The notes under the pieces: generated by a model
Told to the model about the DNA's origin: nothing
Database searches by the model: none
Seen by the model: only the letters and a program-made list of their open reading frames with translations
Shown here: piece after piece, positions 1 through 23,188 of the stretch
How positions within the stretch are numbered: the stretch's first letter is position 1
Layout: the number at the start of each line of letters is the position of its first letter
Source: Clostridia bacterium
GTDB lineage: Bacteria > Bacillota > Clostridia > Lachnospirales > Anaerotignaceae
DNA: 64,000 bases
NCBI GenBank assembly: GCA_022651385.1
Contig: JALCQR010000011.1
Coordinates: 1-64,000, forward strand
Direction of reading: 5' to 3'
Position numbers and translations under genes: made by a program

Positions 1-107
1 GCGGCTCGTTGGATATTTGCTCCTCCCCGCAGCTTTTCGCAGCTTATCACGTCCTTCGTCGGCTCCCAGTGCCAAGGCATTCACCTTGTGCTCTTCTTCG
101 CTTGACC
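1..107 (-). rRNA. 23S ribosomal RNA, 5' end only (gene runs off the window start)
   Basis: Read on the minus strand, this stretch begins GGTCAAGCGAAGAAGAGC and continues with GAATGCCTTGGCACTGGGAG, then a GGACGTGATAAGCTGCG block. These are the universally conserved first ~100 nucleotides of bacterial 23S rRNA. The 5' end is placed near 107 by similarity to the usual GGTTAAGC start and could be off by a few bases. The rest of the gene lies before base 1. Open reading frames across it are not genes. Confidence 0.93.
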
Positions 108-309
108 AGCGGAATGTAGTAGCGTTACTACATCTCTTTCTTTCTTTATTGCTTTCTCGATTATTTTTGACTCTTGTATTTCTCTTTGTTCAGTTTTCAA
201 GGTACAGACAAATGAAATAACAGCAGAAATAAAATTAAAAATTTCACCGAAATTTCATCCTATTTGTTTAAATATTTTTTCAGTCGCTTTTGCTCTCTCT
301 CGCGACCGC
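108..309 (-). promoter_or_regulatory. 23S rRNA leader with boxA-like element and processing hairpin
   Basis: This is a roughly 200-nt transcribed leader between the promoter at 316-344 and the 23S start. On the minus strand it contains GTACCTTGAAAACTGAAC (about 189-206), the motif usually found in the Firmicutes 16S-23S spacer. It also has a perfect hairpin, tgtagta-gcgt-tactaca at 115-132, just before the 23S 5' end, a plausible processing stem. No 16S or tRNA gene is present here, so the stretch resembles the 3' half of a normal spacer joined directly to a promoter. Confidence 0.6.
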
Positions 310-315
310 TTGCTT

Positions 316-344
316 ATAATATCACTACGTAATTTAAAAGTCAA
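316..344 (-). promoter_or_regulatory. Strong sigma-A promoter driving the 23S rRNA gene
   Basis: On the minus strand there is TTGACT (339-344), a 17-nt spacer and TATTAT (316-321), close to the housekeeping consensus with ideal spacing. Transcription would start near 309 and run through the leader into 23S rRNA. It lies upstream of 23S with no 16S between them. Confidence 0.75.
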
Positions 345-401: not shown

Positions 402-1079
402 TCAAGTTATTACTTTTGAAATCATATACATAAGTATATTTTTTTCAAATAGTACAGACGCAATTTTTGATTGTGGAAGAGCCGTATAAAACCATTGTAA
501 TTTATCGCTGCTGCAAAAAAGCACGGCAATTATAAAAAGTACCCATACAATTAAAATACCTTCGCAAACCCCTACGGCAAATCCTCCTATTCTGTTAAAT
601 GTGCTTATAACCGGCAAATGTGTAATAATATCAAGCATCCCAATTATAAGTTTAAATAAAATTATAAGACCAACAACAACAATAATCATAGAGATAATAT
701 TAATGCATATATTTGCAATATATCCTGCTATATAATCCTTAGTATCCGAAACATTAAGTATATTATAAACGACATTGTTGTTGTTTGCTATTAGCAGGCT
801 TTTTAAAAATTGAGGCAAAGACAGAGAATTTACAACGTTTTCAGTTCCGCCTGAAACCGCCGAATTAATGTTTAAGCCTTTGGCGATACTGTTTTTAACT
901 ATATCAAAAAGAGGCGTTTTCATAAGAAACTTGCTTACGTAAGGATATATTTTACCTGTAAAAACCAAAGCCACAATTGATGGTACGAACGAAAAACAGC
1001 TTCTTACAAATCCTCTTGCTCCTCCTATTATGGCTAATAAAGCTATAATTACAATCACTGCTATGTCAAGATTATTCAA
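402..1079 (-). CDS. CvpA family membrane protein
   Basis: The 225-residue integral membrane protein opens with a hydrophobic helix and glycine-rich turn (LLAIIGGARGF, about residues 15-25), then several more membrane segments (about 30-50, 120-150, 165-210). This layout and opening fit the CvpA / colicin V production protein family, whose precise role is unsettled; some members are linked to envelope homeostasis. The start is TTG at 1079, preceded by GAGGTGA six bases upstream, inside the end of the preceding gene. It lies 9 bp behind the propeller protein (stop at 1089), so the two are probably cotranscribed. Function is inferred from family only. Confidence 0.75.
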   Translation of the reverse strand: MNNLDIAVIVIIALLAIIGGARGFVRSCFSFVPSIVALVFTGKIYPYVSKFLMKTPLFDIVKNSIAKGLNINSAVSGGTENVVNSLSLPQFLKSLLIANNNNVVYNILNVSDTKDYIAGYIANICINIISMIIVVVGLIILFKLIIGMLDIITHLPVISTFNRIGGFAVGVCEGILIVWVLFIIAVLFCSSDKLQWFYTALPQSKIASVLFEKNILMYMISKVIT

Positions 1080-1088
1080 AGTCTCACC

Positions 1089-2498
1089 TCATCTCTTTGC
1101 ATTTATTATTTCGGCATTGGTTGAAGTAACAATAAGAATTTTTCTGCCCGACATATCAAAAGGAATAATACATGATATGTCCTGAGTAGCATCAAAAGTC
1201 CAAAGAACTTTTCCCTTGTCGTTTAAACATGCGAAATTTTTATTGTTTCCGACAATAATTCCTTTCTCTGTAGTATTCAGATATGTAATGCTTTGACCTG
1301 TTTTAAATTCTCCTTCTGTTTTCCCGCCGGAGCCAACTATAAGCAAAGTTCCATATGGATATCCGTCTTTTCCGGCAAGCTCATCACCTAATGTTAATAC
1401 AATATCTCCATTGTTTAAAATTGCTGCTTTTTCAGCTTTGTTCGTCAAATCCACATTCCATATTTCCTTTCCTTTTGTATCCACTGCAAATATGTTTTTG
1501 TCGCTTAAAGCTGTGAAATATCCCTTAGAATCATATTTAATAAACGGTATAACTGTATCCTCTTTTTCAATTGCAGCAAAAAAATCGCCTGTATCTGTCT
1601 GTCTTGAATCGTCTTTGCTTGTGTAAAAAAGCATTACACGCGAAATAAGTGAAACATCAGATGTGTCGGCATATGTTACAGCCAAAACTTTTCCGTCATC
1701 GCTTAAAGCCGATGAAATAGGATAAACGCCTTGGTCTTCATCAAATCTTTCAAGCAACAGTGTTCCGTCGGAACTGTAAACCTGCACTTTGTATTCGTCG
1801 TCACAATTAAGAATAATTGTGCTGTATCCCGAGGGGTTAAGCTCGCAGTGAGTTATAAGTCCGTCAGCTTGTACAGTATAAGCCTTTCCGTCCGGAGAAT
1901 AAACCCTTAAGTTTCTTCCCAGCATTTCGTATACTGCCGCATAATCACCGTTTGAAACTGTTGTAATGTTTGAAAGCGTGTATGTATCGTTCCATTTTTG
2001 GTTGTCCGTTGATTGATAGAATTTAACGCCGTCTTTTGTAAAATAATAAAAGCCGTTTCCGCACTGCATAAATTTTGAGATGCTGTCGCTTTCAAAAGTC
2101 ATAAGCTGTACACCCTCATTGTTTTTTACAGTTTTGCCGGAAGCATTTTCATCAGTCTTGTTTTCACCGGCAGAACTTATTGCACTGCTTAATTGGGAAC
2201 TGCTGCTTTGTGAAGCTTCTTTCTGTTCGGCGCTTGATGAAGCAATTTCTTTCGAATCTTCATTGTTTTTTAATGAAAAAGCCTGTAATTTTTCAAAAAT
2301 ATCGCTGTTGGAATTAAGGCCGAAATATATTCCTCCGCCTACAGCTATTAAAAATATAACAATAAAAAGTATTATGCGGCTTTTACTGCTCCCGCTTTTA
2401 TTGCCGCCATCTTCGTCATTTTCTCTGTTTTCGTCAAAATCTTCGTCATTATCGTATTGGTCAAGTTGGTCACTGTCGTCGTCATGTTTATTGCTCAT
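1089..2498 (-). CDS. Membrane-anchored beta-propeller-like protein (DUF5711-like)
   Basis: Residues 1-40 are a very acidic, low-complexity cytoplasmic stretch. A single membrane helix follows (about 42-63, IILFIVIFLIAVGGGIYFGL), then a Ser/Glu/Lys-rich linker and an extracellular region of about 330 residues. That region has repeated short strands with DG, GK and W patterns typical of PQQ/WD-like propellers, and most resembles DUF5711 proteins of Clostridia. A GTG at 2507 gives three extra residues, but the AGAGGTG ribosome site at 2505-2511 sits at proper distance only for ATG at 2498, so that start is chosen. It is the first gene of a pair with the CvpA-like gene. No enzymatic motif is seen; the role is unknown, perhaps envelope sensing or scaffolding. 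Confidence 0.6.
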   Translation of the reverse strand: MSNKHDDDSDQLDQYDNDEDFDENRENDEDGGNKSGSSKSRIILFIVIFLIAVGGGIYFGLNSNSDIFEKLQAFSLKNNEDSKEIASSSAEQKEASQSSSSQLSSAISSAGENKTDENASGKTVKNNEGVQLMTFESDSISKFMQCGNGFYYFTKDGVKFYQSTDNQKWNDTYTLSNITTVSNGDYAAVYEMLGRNLRVYSPDGKAYTVQADGLITHCELNPSGYSTIILNCDDEYKVQVYSSDGTLLLERFDEDQGVYPISSALSDDGKVLAVTYADTSDVSLISRVMLFYTSKDDSRQTDTGDFFAAIEKEDTVIPFIKYDSKGYFTALSDKNIFAVDTKGKEIWNVDLTNKAEKAAILNNGDIVLTLGDELAGKDGYPYGTLLIVGSGGKTEGEFKTGQSITYLNTTEKGIIVGNNKNFACLNDKGKVLWTFDATQDISCIIPFDMSGRKILIVTSTNAEIINAKR

Positions 2499-2528
2499 TC
2501 GCTTCACCTCTGTAAAAATCGTTTATAT

Positions 2529-2557
2529 ATTATACTATAAATAAAAGTGAAAGTCTA
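2529..2557 (-). promoter_or_regulatory. Putative promoter of the propeller-cvpA pair
   Basis: On the minus strand there is TAGACT (2552-2557), a 17-nt spacer and TATAAT (2529-2534), about 30 bp before the ATG at 2498. The -35 element overlaps the stop codon region of the upstream YkvI-type gene. Confidence 0.5.
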
Positions 2558-3571
2558 TTTGTTTTGGCTTGAGCTTCCAAAAAACAGCAGTCTAAATGAA
2601 AAGCCTGTAATTGCAATTCCCAGCACGCAAAATATTGAATATACTTTTTCTACAAAAAACGAAAAGCTTATATGCGAAACCACAAAAGACAGCATAATAA
2701 AAAACACAGCCAAAAAAATGTCATGCCGTATGTTTCCGTTTCTTTTGTATAAAACACAGCCGTTGGCACATGCGGTTGTAAAAACAGCTGATATAAAAAC
2801 AGCCGAATATAAATGTATCATACCATTTTCACGCATAGCCGTAAACATAGGTATTTGACTTTTACATGCATTATTTTCGGCCAAAACACAGGCAAGTATC
2901 ATGTTTAATATTGATATGAATAGAGCTCCAACAAAAAAGCCGGTGTTTCTTTCATTTCTACCGAATTCTTTTCTGCATGCAATAAGTACAGGAATACATG
3001 TTGACATATTGTAAAATGAAAATGCAACAGGAAGTTTAATTTTTCCTAAAAACGAAATTTCAGGCATGTCATACTTACCAATCAAAGACAATAAACAAAT
3101 AATCATTCCAAGCATAAGAAACGGTACAATTACAGAATTCATCTTTGCAATGCCATTTGCCCCAAAAATGATTACAGAAAAACATGTCAGAATAAATCCA
3201 AACCTGATTATGTCCTTGTTTATTCCTAAAAAAATGTAAAACACCTCGGTTGCAGCAGATATCATAGCGCAGAAAAGCACAAAAATAAAAGCTGTAGTGG
3301 CACTTTCAAAAATAACCGCTGCTTTATTACCAAAAATAAGATTATAAAAATCACTGTTTTTTCTCATTTTTTCAGCTGCCTGTGTACATATAACAGCAGA
3401 TAAAAAGAAAATTGCAAAACTTATAATGAATGATAAAATTGATACTTTTCCGTTGTCAACAAAATATGTAACCGTTTCCTTTCCGCCGGCAAACCCTGCC
3501 CCTATAAGTGTACCTGTAAATACTGAAAAAGCTTTAAGCCATCCTTTTTTGCTCAAAATAAAAACCCCCAT
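2555..3571 (-). CDS. YkvI family membrane transporter-like protein
   Basis: This 338-residue polytopic protein has about ten hydrophobic segments. The N-terminal GTLIGAGFAGGKETVTYF (about residues 20-37) matches the broken first helix (GAGFxSGxE) of YkvI-type proteins, distant relatives of LeuT/APC-fold transporters. The substrate is unknown. The listed ATG at 3571 has no ribosome site; a TTG five codons later is preceded by GGGGG at a workable distance and may be the true start. It lies 35 bp downstream of glgA on the same strand and could be cotranscribed, though no functional link is evident. Confidence 0.65.
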   Translation of the reverse strand: MGVFILSKKGWLKAFSVFTGTLIGAGFAGGKETVTYFVDNGKVSILSFIISFAIFFLSAVICTQAAEKMRKNSDFYNLIFGNKAAVIFESATTAFIFVLFCAMISAATEVFYIFLGINKDIIRFGFILTCFSVIIFGANGIAKMNSVIVPFLMLGMIICLLSLIGKYDMPEISFLGKIKLPVAFSFYNMSTCIPVLIACRKEFGRNERNTGFFVGALFISILNMILACVLAENNACKSQIPMFTAMRENGMIHLYSAVFISAVFTTACANGCVLYKRNGNIRHDIFLAVFFIMLSFVVSHISFSFFVEKVYSIFCVLGIAITGFSFRLLFFGSSSQNK

Positions 3572-3606: not shown

Positions 3607-5043
3607 TCAGTCACAATTAATGATTTTTTTATATAGTTCTATATATTTTTTAGCTGATGTATTCCATGAAAAATCGGATTCCATAGCGTTTTTAACAACA
3701 TATTTCCAGTCATCGCTGTAATAAACACTTAGCGCTTCATTAATGGCCCATAGAAGCCCGTCTGATGTGTAGTGCTCAAAAACAAAACCGTTACCCTGTT
3801 TAGTGTTTCTGTCAAAATGAGTGACAGTATCCGAAAGGCCTCCTGTTTTTCTCACAATAGGTATGGTGCCGTATCTTAATGAAAACATCTGTCCAAGGCC
3901 GCACGGTTCAAATAAAGAAGGCATTAAAAACATGTCGCTTGAAGCATATATCCTTTGGGCAAGAGTATCGTCAAAAAGAATGTTAGTACTTATTTTATCG
4001 GGATACCTATAAGCAAGGTCTCTGAAAAAATCCTCAAGTCTTTTTTCTCCTGTTCCAAGCAAAACAAGCTGAATATCCCTGTTAAGTATTTCCTCTGCCA
4101 CCCAAGAAACCAAATCAAGTCCCTTTTGCTCGGCAAGACGGGATACAATACTAATCATAGGTACATCTTTTTGATTAAGCCCAAGCTGTTTTTGAAGCTC
4201 AAGCTTGTTTTGTTTTTTCTTTTCTATGGAATCAATTGAAAAGTTTACATATATTCTTTTGTCTGTTTCCGGATTGTTTTTTTCATAATCAATTCCGTTA
4301 AGTATTCCGCAAAGCTTGTCCGCACGGCTTCTCATAACGCCGTCAAGACCGTAGCCATATTGAAATGTTTTTATTTCTTTTGCGTATGTGCTGCTTACTG
4401 TGCTTATCATGTCTGAATACATAAGTCCGGCTTTCATAAAGCTCATTGAGCCGTAAAATTCTACGCTGTCAAAACACCAGTCCGAGATTTCAAGCATTTC
4501 CAAAGTATAACGAGGGAATATTCCCTGATACTGCATGTTATGGATTGTAAAAAGAGTCTTTATGTTTTTGTAGTCTGCAAACTTGTTAAAGTATTCTTTA
4601 AGAAGAAGGCATAAAGGGCCTGTCTGCCAGTCATTGCAGTGTATTACATCCGGGATAAAATCAATAAACTGAAGTATTTCAAGAGCGGCTTTGCAGAAAA
4701 ATGCAAATCTCTCATTATCATCATCGTAGCCGTAATATTTGTCACGTCCGAAATAATAGTTGTTTTCAATAAAATACGTTGTAAAATCTCCGTCTTTTTG
4801 TATAATTCCGGCAGGCTGTTTTCTCCAAGAAAGATGTGTCTCGTAACTTCCCAAATATTTGCAGCCGATAAAATACTCGTTTTTAATGCTTTTGTATTTC
4901 GGCATTACAACTCTTACATCAACACCGTTTTTTCTTAAAGCCACCGGCAGAGAGCCGGTAACATCGCCTAGACCGCCTGATTTTGCATACGGCGCCACTT
5001 CAGATGAAATAATAAGAACCTTAATAGGTTTATTTGTGTCCAT
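3607..5043 (-). CDS. glgA: Glycogen synthase (ADP-glucose, GT5)
   Basis: GlgA transfers glucose from ADP-glucose to the growing alpha-1,4-glucan chain in the cytoplasm. The 478 residues match normal family length. The ADP-glucose binding loop KSGGL is at residues 21-25. The C-terminal GT-B half carries the conserved SLFEPCGLGQM stretch followed by RKTGGLSDTV. A GGAAGGGA ribosome site precedes the ATG. The partner branching enzyme glgB lies about 40 kb away (44238-46436). ADP-glucose pyrophosphorylase and phosphorylase genes are not in this window, so the glycogen genes are dispersed. Confidence 0.95.
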   Translation of the reverse strand: MDTNKPIKVLIISSEVAPYAKSGGLGDVTGSLPVALRKNGVDVRVVMPKYKSIKNEYFIGCKYLGSYETHLSWRKQPAGIIQKDGDFTTYFIENNYYFGRDKYYGYDDDNERFAFFCKAALEILQFIDFIPDVIHCNDWQTGPLCLLLKEYFNKFADYKNIKTLFTIHNMQYQGIFPRYTLEMLEISDWCFDSVEFYGSMSFMKAGLMYSDMISTVSSTYAKEIKTFQYGYGLDGVMRSRADKLCGILNGIDYEKNNPETDKRIYVNFSIDSIEKKKQNKLELQKQLGLNQKDVPMISIVSRLAEQKGLDLVSWVAEEILNRDIQLVLLGTGEKRLEDFFRDLAYRYPDKISTNILFDDTLAQRIYASSDMFLMPSLFEPCGLGQMFSLRYGTIPIVRKTGGLSDTVTHFDRNTKQGNGFVFEHYTSDGLLWAINEALSVYYSDDWKYVVKNAMESDFSWNTSAKKYIELYKKIINCD

Positions 5044-5240: not shown

Positions 5241-7040
5241 ATGACTAAAACCAGCATACCTGAAAGAAATGAAATAGATGATAAATTCAAATGGAGACTT
5301 GAGGATATTTTTTCAAGTGACAAAAAATGGGAAGAAGCAGCCGAAACAGTAAAAAAAGAACTTCCGGAATTCAAAAAATACGAAGGCCATCTGAAAGATG
5401 ACGCCCAGACGTTTTTTAACTTTTTAAAATTTTCCGATAAAGTTTCGCAGCTAATTGAAAAGGTATATGTCTATGCCAATATGCGCCTTCATCAGGATAG
5501 CCGCAGTTCATTTTATCAGTCACAGACAAATAAGGCCGAAATGCTTATGGTAGATTTAAGCAATTCCACTTCTTCTTTTGTACCGGAAATAACTAATATT
5601 CCGGATGATACAACAAAAAAATTCATGTCCGAAAAACCGGAATTAAAAATATATGCTCATTACATTGAATCCATAACCAGAAAAAAAGAGCATGTGCTCT
5701 CTCCAAATGAAGAAGCGCTTCTTGCAAAAATGGGGAGTTTTTCAAATTCCGCCGAAGATATATTCTCAATGCTAAATGACGCCGATATTACGTTTCCAAA
5801 AATTAAAGATGAAAACGGAGACGAGGTAGAGCTTACAAAAGGCCGTTATATTCAGTTTATGGAAAGCAAAAACAGAGAAGTACGAAAATCTGCTTTTAAT
5901 GCGCTTTATGAAACATATGAAAAACTTAAACATACAATTGCCGCTGCTTATTATTCAAATGTAAAAAAAGATGTGTTTTATTCACAGGTGCGTAAATACC
6001 CTTCCTCAATAGCAGCAGCGCTTGATGATGATAAAATTCCTTCAAAAGTATACGATAACTTAATTTCGTCTGTCCATAAATATCTGCCACTTATGCACAG
6101 ATATGTGAAAATCCGCAAAAAGCTTCTCGGTCTTGATGAGCTTCATATGTATGATTTGTATGCGCCTCTTGTAGAAGATGCCGATATGAAAATAACGTAT
6201 GATAAGGCAAAACAAATAGTAATAAAGGCTCTGGCCCCAATGGGCGACGATTATGTATCATCACTTAAAAAGGGCCTTGAGGGCGGTTGGATAGATGTTT
6301 ATGAAAATAAGGGAAAGCGCGGAGGCGCCTATTCGTGGGGAGCATACGGAGTACATCCTTATGTGCTTTTAAATCATACTAATAATCTTAATTCGGTTTT
6401 TACCCTTGTTCATGAAATGGGACACGCAATGCATAGCTATTATACTTGGAAAACACAGCCTTATGTTTATTCAGGACATAAAATTTTTGTAGCCGAGGTC
6501 GCATCAACATGCAATGAGTCGCTGCTTATGGAATATATGCTTAAAAATACAACCGACAAAAAGACAAGAATGTACCTTATAAATTATTTTCTTGAGCAGT
6601 TTAAGGGCACGTTTTTCAGACAGGCAATGTTTGCGGAATTCGAGAAAAAATGCCATGAGCTTGTAGAAAATGGAGAGCCACTTACATGTGACGGGATGTG
6701 TGAAATATACAGAAAATTAAATGAACAGTATTTTGGCGACGGTTTGGTAATAGACAAGCATATTGATTTTGAATGGGCAAGGATACCTCATTTTTATAGT
6801 GCTTTTTATGTTTATCAGTATTCCACAGGCTATACTGCCGCAATAGCGCTTTCGAGAAAAATATTAAAAGAAGGGAAACCTGCTGTAGATAAATATATAG
6901 ATTTTCTTTCAAACGGAAGCAGTAAATATTCAATAGACCTTTTAAAGAGTGCCGGAGTCGATATGACAAAAGTTGAACCTTTTGAGGAAGCAATGTCTGT
7001 GTTTGAAAAACTTCTTGATGATATGGAAAAAGAAATATAA
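5241..7040 (+). CDS. pepF: Oligoendopeptidase F (M3 metallopeptidase)
   Basis: This cytoplasmic zinc endopeptidase cleaves short peptides of roughly 7-17 residues, contributing to peptide turnover. The 599 residues match PepF length. The zinc site HEMGH is at residues 391-395, with a downstream glutamate in the EVAST segment as third ligand. The ATG at 5241 follows GGAAGGAG. It is transcribed away from glgA and is monocistronic or followed by the MocR gene after a 235-bp gap that holds a dispersed repeat. A second, more divergent M3 peptidase is at 47892-49652. Confidence 0.92.
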   Translation: MTKTSIPERNEIDDKFKWRLEDIFSSDKKWEEAAETVKKELPEFKKYEGHLKDDAQTFFNFLKFSDKVSQLIEKVYVYANMRLHQDSRSSFYQSQTNKAEMLMVDLSNSTSSFVPEITNIPDDTTKKFMSEKPELKIYAHYIESITRKKEHVLSPNEEALLAKMGSFSNSAEDIFSMLNDADITFPKIKDENGDEVELTKGRYIQFMESKNREVRKSAFNALYETYEKLKHTIAAAYYSNVKKDVFYSQVRKYPSSIAAALDDDKIPSKVYDNLISSVHKYLPLMHRYVKIRKKLLGLDELHMYDLYAPLVEDADMKITYDKAKQIVIKALAPMGDDYVSSLKKGLEGGWIDVYENKGKRGGAYSWGAYGVHPYVLLNHTNNLNSVFTLVHEMGHAMHSYYTWKTQPYVYSGHKIFVAEVASTCNESLLMEYMLKNTTDKKTRMYLINYFLEQFKGTFFRQAMFAEFEKKCHELVENGEPLTCDGMCEIYRKLNEQYFGDGLVIDKHIDFEWARIPHFYSAFYVYQYSTGYTAAIALSRKILKEGKPAVDKYIDFLSNGSSKYSIDLLKSAGVDMTKVEPFEEAMSVFEKLLDDMEKEI

Positions 7041-22929: not shown

Positions 22930-23188
22930 AGTTTGGGTATAAAAAAATCCCCGTATGCCTAAAAAGGATTTAGGGACGAAGATGATTCCGTGGTACCACC
23001 CTATTTATGCTGTATAAAACAGCATCACTTTAGGCCCTGTAACGCAAGGCAGCGTCCGGTGCTTTTTAGCCGGAGGCTCAAAGATTTGCTTCACCGGTCA
23101 TGGCAGTAACGCGCTTTCAGCAAATGCGAGTCTCTCTGAAAAACCATCAAATCGGCTAATTATTCTTATCACAGCCTATAAACTCAAT
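22930..23188 (-). promoter_or_regulatory. T-box riboswitch leader of alaS
   Basis: On the minus strand the leader contains the diagnostic T-box AGGGTGGTACCACG (22989-23002), then the competing terminator region ending in TTTTTTT (about 22941-22975). Upstream are a long structured stem I and an AGAGAG-containing element (about 23131-23136). It should read uncharged tRNA-Ala and allow alaS transcription under alanine starvation. I could not fix the specifier codon by eye; GCA and GCC triplets occur in the right part of stem I. Confidence 0.92.

Follow-up and report, generated by a model that had tools for sequence, protein, structure and literature searches.

At the start of a contig of an Anaerotignaceae genome (G000), we found the beginning of a 23S rRNA gene that is preceded by a predicted promoter and by no 16S gene. 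We interpret this as a real 23S operon without 16S, most likely a working one, which arose by the loss of the 16S gene from an ordinary rrn operon, and we place the probability of this reading at roughly 0.87. The observations on which it is based are the anatomy and synteny of the site, the absence of 16S from the same site in relatives assembled as single contigs, the intact operons of outgroups, the conservation of the promoter, and the near-identity of the 16S-less ("orphan") 23S genes to the copies in linked operons.

Anatomy of the 23S rRNA gene start

The window, the whole stretch of DNA analyzed here, comprises 64,000 nt and corresponds to positions 1-64000 of contig C11 (107,956 bp) in an assembly of 19 contigs and 2.6 Mb. 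The 5' end of the 23S rRNA gene was identified on the minus strand at 1..107 by Rfam and blastn. The Rfam model LSU_rRNA_bacteria (RF02541) matched 107..1 over model positions 1-107 (74.3 bits, E-value of 5.3e-20), and the fragment showed 90.6% identity in blastn to the 23S gene of the relative G029. The gene is truncated by the contig start, and is visible in G000 for 107 nt only. Upstream lies a leader (108..315, minus), similar in its 23S-proximal half to the spacer between 16S and 23S in the linked operons of relatives, and then a sigma-70-type promoter, TTGACT-17-TATTAT with a TG before the -10 element (316..344, minus), recognized by its sequence match and its conservation in relatives. 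A preliminary description of this DNA had located the promoter about 200 bp from the 23S gene, and it indeed reads from 344 to 316, with a spacing of 208 nt. There are 14 promoter-like sites in 3 kb, compared to a shuffle mean of 9.8 (sd 3.0). Taken alone, one promoter match is weak evidence; it is position and conservation that give it weight. Within the leader, a hairpin, GTAGTA-ACGC-TACTAC (116..131, minus), is situated directly upstream of the 23S gene and occurs also in the linked operons of relatives. The motif CTTGAAAACTGAA (189..201, minus), which we take to be boxA-like, is retained at 201..189, as the preliminary description had proposed.

The same description had noted a 23S gene lacking an upstream 16S gene, and this was borne out. 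Rfam detected no 16S and ARAGORN no tRNA in the 64,000-nt window, and neither lies between the promoter and the 23S gene. The contig extends 107,956 bp upstream of the 23S gene, and the 1500 bp nearest to the gene contain no 16S. In the whole G000 assembly, a covariance search gave 0 matches to 16S at threshold among the best 26 of 28 candidates.

The adjoining protein-coding genes had been described as following the 23S gene. In the direction of that gene they do not; the four nearest are all upstream of it and oriented towards it. Closest is a cvpA-like gene (Pfam Colicin_V; 402..1079, minus), a conserved upstream neighbor of the 23S gene. It is preceded by a gene for a DUF5711 protein (1089..2507, minus), by an open reading frame without a Pfam or NCBIfam match that some of the relatives also have at this position (2555..3571, minus), and by the glycogen synthase gene glgA (3607..5043, minus). 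The DUF5711 gene and glgA are conserved neighbors, as is the divergent oligoendopeptidase gene pepF (5241..7040, plus). Elsewhere in the window, a T-box leader is found at 22969-23181 (minus, 114.9 bits).

Distribution in the Anaerotignaceae

The arrangement is found widely in the family Anaerotignaceae. Our sample consisted of 58 family genomes, G000 included. The cvpA model matched 50 of these and gave no match in eight; 49 were examined, G019 being excluded since its match position was lacking. The next rRNA after cvpA was a 23S start in 25 genomes, at a distance of 248 to 2,069 nt, and 16S in 0; the contig end came first in 22, and neither was reached in two. In these two, G035 and G039, the 7 and 10 kb that follow cvpA contain no rRNA. 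At the 22 contig ends, a script with a 12% mismatch limit found no 16S or 23S start of at least 14 nt. Inspection by eye revealed about 16 nt of a 23S-like start at the end of the G048 contig, and showed those of G050 and G057 to stop directly past the 23S-leader hairpin. A tRNA-Ala gene follows cvpA in 8 of the 49 genomes, as a relic would.

Four family genomes are single contigs, three from one genus (G021, G022 and G027) and one from another (G029). In all four, the orphan 23S gene lies in the order glgA-DUF5711-cvpA-23S-5S-Asn-Glu-Cys, with the 5S gene after the 23S gene. Each contains exactly one 23S gene without 16S upstream and exactly one 16S gene without 23S downstream, the latter always with a Sir2-type deacylase gene before it and tRNA-Tyr after it. 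From covariance models and mapping on fetched regions, the 16S/23S totals in G021, G022, G027 and G029 are 4/4, 7/7, 6/6 and 5/5, counts that cover the best 10 of 14-63 candidates per genome, or the best 14-22 of 14-52, such that a missed copy is possible. Linked operons number 3, 6, 5 and 4, and linked and unlinked rRNA genes thus occur together in these genomes. The preliminary suggestion of an unlinked 23S operon is supported by this placement, at the same site without 16S in four of four single-contig relatives and with a 23S start following cvpA in 25 of 49 genomes.

The preliminary description had also raised collapse of repeated rrn operons during assembly, by which a 16S gene between the promoter and the 23S gene would have been dropped. 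C11 does end inside the 23S gene, G000 has many branch ends, and rrn operons are frequently left incomplete by short-read assembly, according to passages of one report (PMC5513972). As the cause of a contig that ends 107 nt into the 23S gene, collapse is plausible. As the cause of the missing 16S we find it scarcely credible, since the promoter-leader-23S junction lies inside C11, the cvpA-23S junction recurs in 25 family assemblies, and the four single-contig genomes have a full 23S gene there and no 16S. On the single-contig relatives and the 25 family contigs, we rejected it.

Contig ends of the G000 assembly

A blastn comparison of the G000 contig ends located 16S pieces, 57-112 nt in length, on C1, C2 and C19 only. 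Eight of the 15 sequence-sharing pairs of contig ends share exactly 127 nt, which we read as the mark of a k-mer assembler halting at repeats. The C11 start has no sequence in common with any other G000 contig end, so that a second 23S copy in G000 is itself presumed. C5 ends in 5S-Asn-Glu-Cys-Leu, much as the orphan 23S operon does, and stops 10 nt beyond a 5S gene. C1 starts with a 16S 3' end followed by tRNA-Tyr, and one end of C19 carries sir2 followed by a 16S 5' end, as in the orphan 16S of all four single-contig relatives. C2 ends in a further 16S 5' end, whilst C18 starts in a Glu-Thr-Met-Asp-Val-Met array with 110 nt common to C5. These ends fit an orphan 23S operon (C11-C5), an orphan 16S gene (C19-C1) and one or more linked operons (C2-C18), joins that we propose from the gene order. 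The G000 23S gene would then be complete and would connect C11 to C5, probably with a 5S gene after it (C5). A linked operon is likewise predicted in G000 from the ends of C2, C19, C1, C18 and C5. The C1 end (L052) and the C10 start (L041) share 127 nt terminating in two tandem TTGACA-type promoters, and may represent two further rrn operons.

Conservation of promoter, leader and 23S gene

Promoter conservation was measured in 22 cvpA-23S spacers, one per genome, in which the 23S start was available. A promoter scoring at least 10/12 is present in 21 of the 22, whereas 200 mononucleotide shuffles gave 2.9 on average and 8 at most; the exception, L117, scores 9/12. Most of the best sites have the form TTGACA-17-TANTAT. 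The present window is among those with at least 10/12, which is what would be expected of an independent 23S-5S transcription unit with its own promoter. The hairpin, in the form GTAGTA-NCGC-TACTAC, occurs in 15 of the 22 spacers. In G029, two linked copies contain the hairpin GTAATA-ACGC-TATTAC, in which the stem is changed on both sides. The boxA-like motif was found in 16 of the 20 leaders examined, and is absent within 250 nt in G027 (three copies) and G052.

We also compared the orphan and linked copies within the four single-contig genomes. In all four, the leader of the orphan is nearly identical to the linked-operon spacer. The duplex energy of the pre-23S processing stem, calculated for eight copies, gave z-scores of -1.1 to -3.6, with orphan copies similar to linked ones. 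Over the approximately 2,900 positions of the 23S gene, orphan and linked copies differ at 1-2 positions in G022, 0 in G027, 0-17 in G021 and 1-9 in G029. These differences resemble those among the linked copies, and the same holds for 16S. The near-identity suggests that concerted evolution includes the orphans, which at the level of sequence look functional.

Loss of rRNA genes from the cvpA site does occur. The site keeps tail tRNAs only, with or without 5S, in G331 and L165, and is without rRNA in G035 and G039, as might be expected if the 23S gene here were an unused remnant in the course of being lost. The 23S gene is, however, full-length and nearly identical to the linked copies in four of four single-contig genomes, and the promoter is retained in 21 of 22 spacers. 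We thus regard a dying remnant as very improbable.

The cvpA site in outgroups

Elsewhere in the order, some families keep an intact operon at this site. In G094 and G205, both single contigs, a full operon follows cvpA, 3.2 and 0.5 kb away, in the order 16S-5S-(Ile-Ala)-23S and with an array ending Asn-Glu-5S-Cys. G205 contains two 16S-23S units after cvpA. G223 resembles these genomes, but a 2,500-N run interrupts its two units. The three genomes come from two other families. A 16S start also follows cvpA in G104 (L205) and in five contigs outside the 49 family contigs (L132, L142, L148, L149 and L164). The site is further reduced in G331 (L202), with only Glu-Cys after cvpA, and in L165, with Asn-Glu-5S-Cys; in both cases the stretch read contains neither 16S nor 23S.

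In total, 19 outgroups were fetched at cvpA. Four have 16S there (G094, G205, G223 and G104), and G331 has tRNAs only. G101, G255, G227, G066, G080 and G191 have no rRNA within 4.4 to 14.8 kb after cvpA, and in the remaining eight the contig ends within 0.7 kb of it. Since 16S was seen at cvpA in only 4 of 19 outgroups, the ancestral state rests on few genomes. The shared tail suggests a single site in three states, namely intact, 16S-less and tail only. The simplest reading is that 16S was lost in the Anaerotignaceae ancestor and that both rRNAs were lost elsewhere. On this evidence the 16S was most likely lost in place at the cvpA site.

Many linked operons carry a 5S gene between 16S and 23S, often with tRNA-Ile and tRNA-Ala genes, and some have a second 5S after the 23S gene. 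Operons with 5S between 16S and 23S were seen in G021, G022, G027, G029, G094, G205 and others (L071-L096, L199, L200 and L229-L268).

Orphan 16S rRNA genes in outgroups

We listed 16S genes in 10 outgroup genomes (best 13-16 candidates per genome) and examined nine, leaving out G124, which has one partial match. For G082, six full-length genes of 12 16S matches were read, with three full-length (46237, 76840 and 84394) and three partial matches left out. A 16S gene followed by tRNA-Tyr, with no 23S in the stretch read, occurs in four of the nine outgroups, G094, G205, G279 and G101, from four other families (loci L231, L239, L261 and L243). A 5S gene lies between 16S and tRNA-Tyr in G101 (L243). 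Among the six loci read in G082, two on C1 (L263 and L265) are full 16S genes without 23S. The 16S-Tyr orphan is absent in G331, G078, G170 and G177. The last three belong to the family of G205, and the trait is therefore patchy. It may be older than the Anaerotignaceae, or may have more than one origin. The proteins encoded on either side of the orphan 16S match only within the family, apart from one G094-G205 pair, and with flank matches so limited, any homology of the family and outgroup orphan 16S genes rests on tRNA order.

The orphan 23S at the cvpA locus and the orphan 16S at the sir2 locus could be the two halves of one operon, separated in a single event. This would account for there being exactly one orphan of each kind in four of four single-contig relatives, with equal totals. 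It is also favored by the absence of rRNA downstream of sir2 in 10 outgroup genomes (of 16 searched; 2.5 to 11 kb read). Against it, the 16S-Tyr orphan is present in G094, G205, G101 and G279, and in G094 and G205 it exists beside an intact cvpA operon. The orphan 16S thus looks older, although four outgroups lack 16S-Tyr and the flanking proteins give no link to the family's orphan, so that separate origins are conceivable. The split reading is weakened by these loci, and we consider it unlikely.

Discussion

We propose that an rRNA promoter of the sigma-70 type, located some 200 nt upstream, would drive a 23S-5S-tRNA-Asn-tRNA-Glu-tRNA-Cys transcript, the downstream half of the operon probably being contig C5. 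The 23S rRNA would be processed and assembled with 16S rRNA from other loci, one of which would be the orphan 16S-tRNA-Tyr locus (C19 and C1). The source would have been an ordinary rrn operon, of the kind that some families elsewhere in the order still have downstream of cvpA, and the 16S gene would have been lost together with the spacer 5S and tRNA-Ile genes, in many genera also with tRNA-Ala. The parts of the scheme that we infer from sequence are transcription and processing, the joining of C11 to C5 through the 23S gene, and the direction of change.

Unlinked rRNA genes in "mixed" genomes are a known kind. Cellulosilyticum lentocellum belongs to the same order as the Anaerotignaceae. To our knowledge, the genomes of Wolbachia and Helicobacter pylori have no linked operon, unlike the single-contig Anaerotignaceae relatives, which have 3 to 6. 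Mixed genomes are defined, in the passages concerned, as those with both linked and unlinked rRNA genes, with a limit of 1,500 bp (PMC7761764, PMC8178347). C. lentocellum DSM 5427 is given as mixed in a portion of the second of these papers (PMC8178347), which there cites Brewer 2020 for unlinked genes being absent from the human gut. As far as that portion goes, C. lentocellum is similar to the Anaerotignaceae in combining linked operons with separate rRNA genes in a clostridial genome, but in the Anaerotignaceae the orphan 23S is at a fixed site in many genomes, and outgroups have an intact operon there. Wolbachia and H. pylori have 16S and 23S-5S as separate transcription units, according to a section of PMC7761764. 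The likeness, as described in that section, is a 23S-5S transcription unit without 16S, which in our case is predicted from sequence. An extract of PMC2914790 describes a 16S-5S-23S order as common in Lachnospiraceae, comparable to the many linked operons of Anaerotignaceae and outgroups with 5S in that position. What the extract describes differs in being a reordered complete operon, with no loss of 16S. In Romboutsia ilealis, rRNA genes are duplicated, missing or reordered at 5 of 15 loci, and three assembly gaps fall in rRNA operons, as stated in part of PMC5598433. Our literature search, which for the longer result lists covered the top 10 to 20 titles, gave no description of this fixed orphan 23S, of where it came from, or of the equal 16S/23S totals, and the tables of Brewer 2020 (ISME J) may include some of these genomes.

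The cvpA site shows a route to an unlinked rRNA gene, with an intact operon in some outgroups, a 16S-less operon in the Anaerotignaceae and, in two others, only tail tRNAs, accompanied by 5S in one of them. In practical terms, surveys based on 16S-ITS-23S amplicons would overlook one copy each of 16S and 23S in every such genome. The equal numbers of 16S and 23S genes despite unlinking make rRNA gene balance testable. We tentatively put forward, as a possible but doubtful scenario, that a surplus orphan 16S-Tyr gene existed beforehand in the order, that the loss of 16S at the cvpA site in the Anaerotignaceae ancestor restored equality, and that selection then held the 1:1 ratio while copy number varied. 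If this were true, separate promoters would permit the independent setting of small- and large-subunit rRNA.
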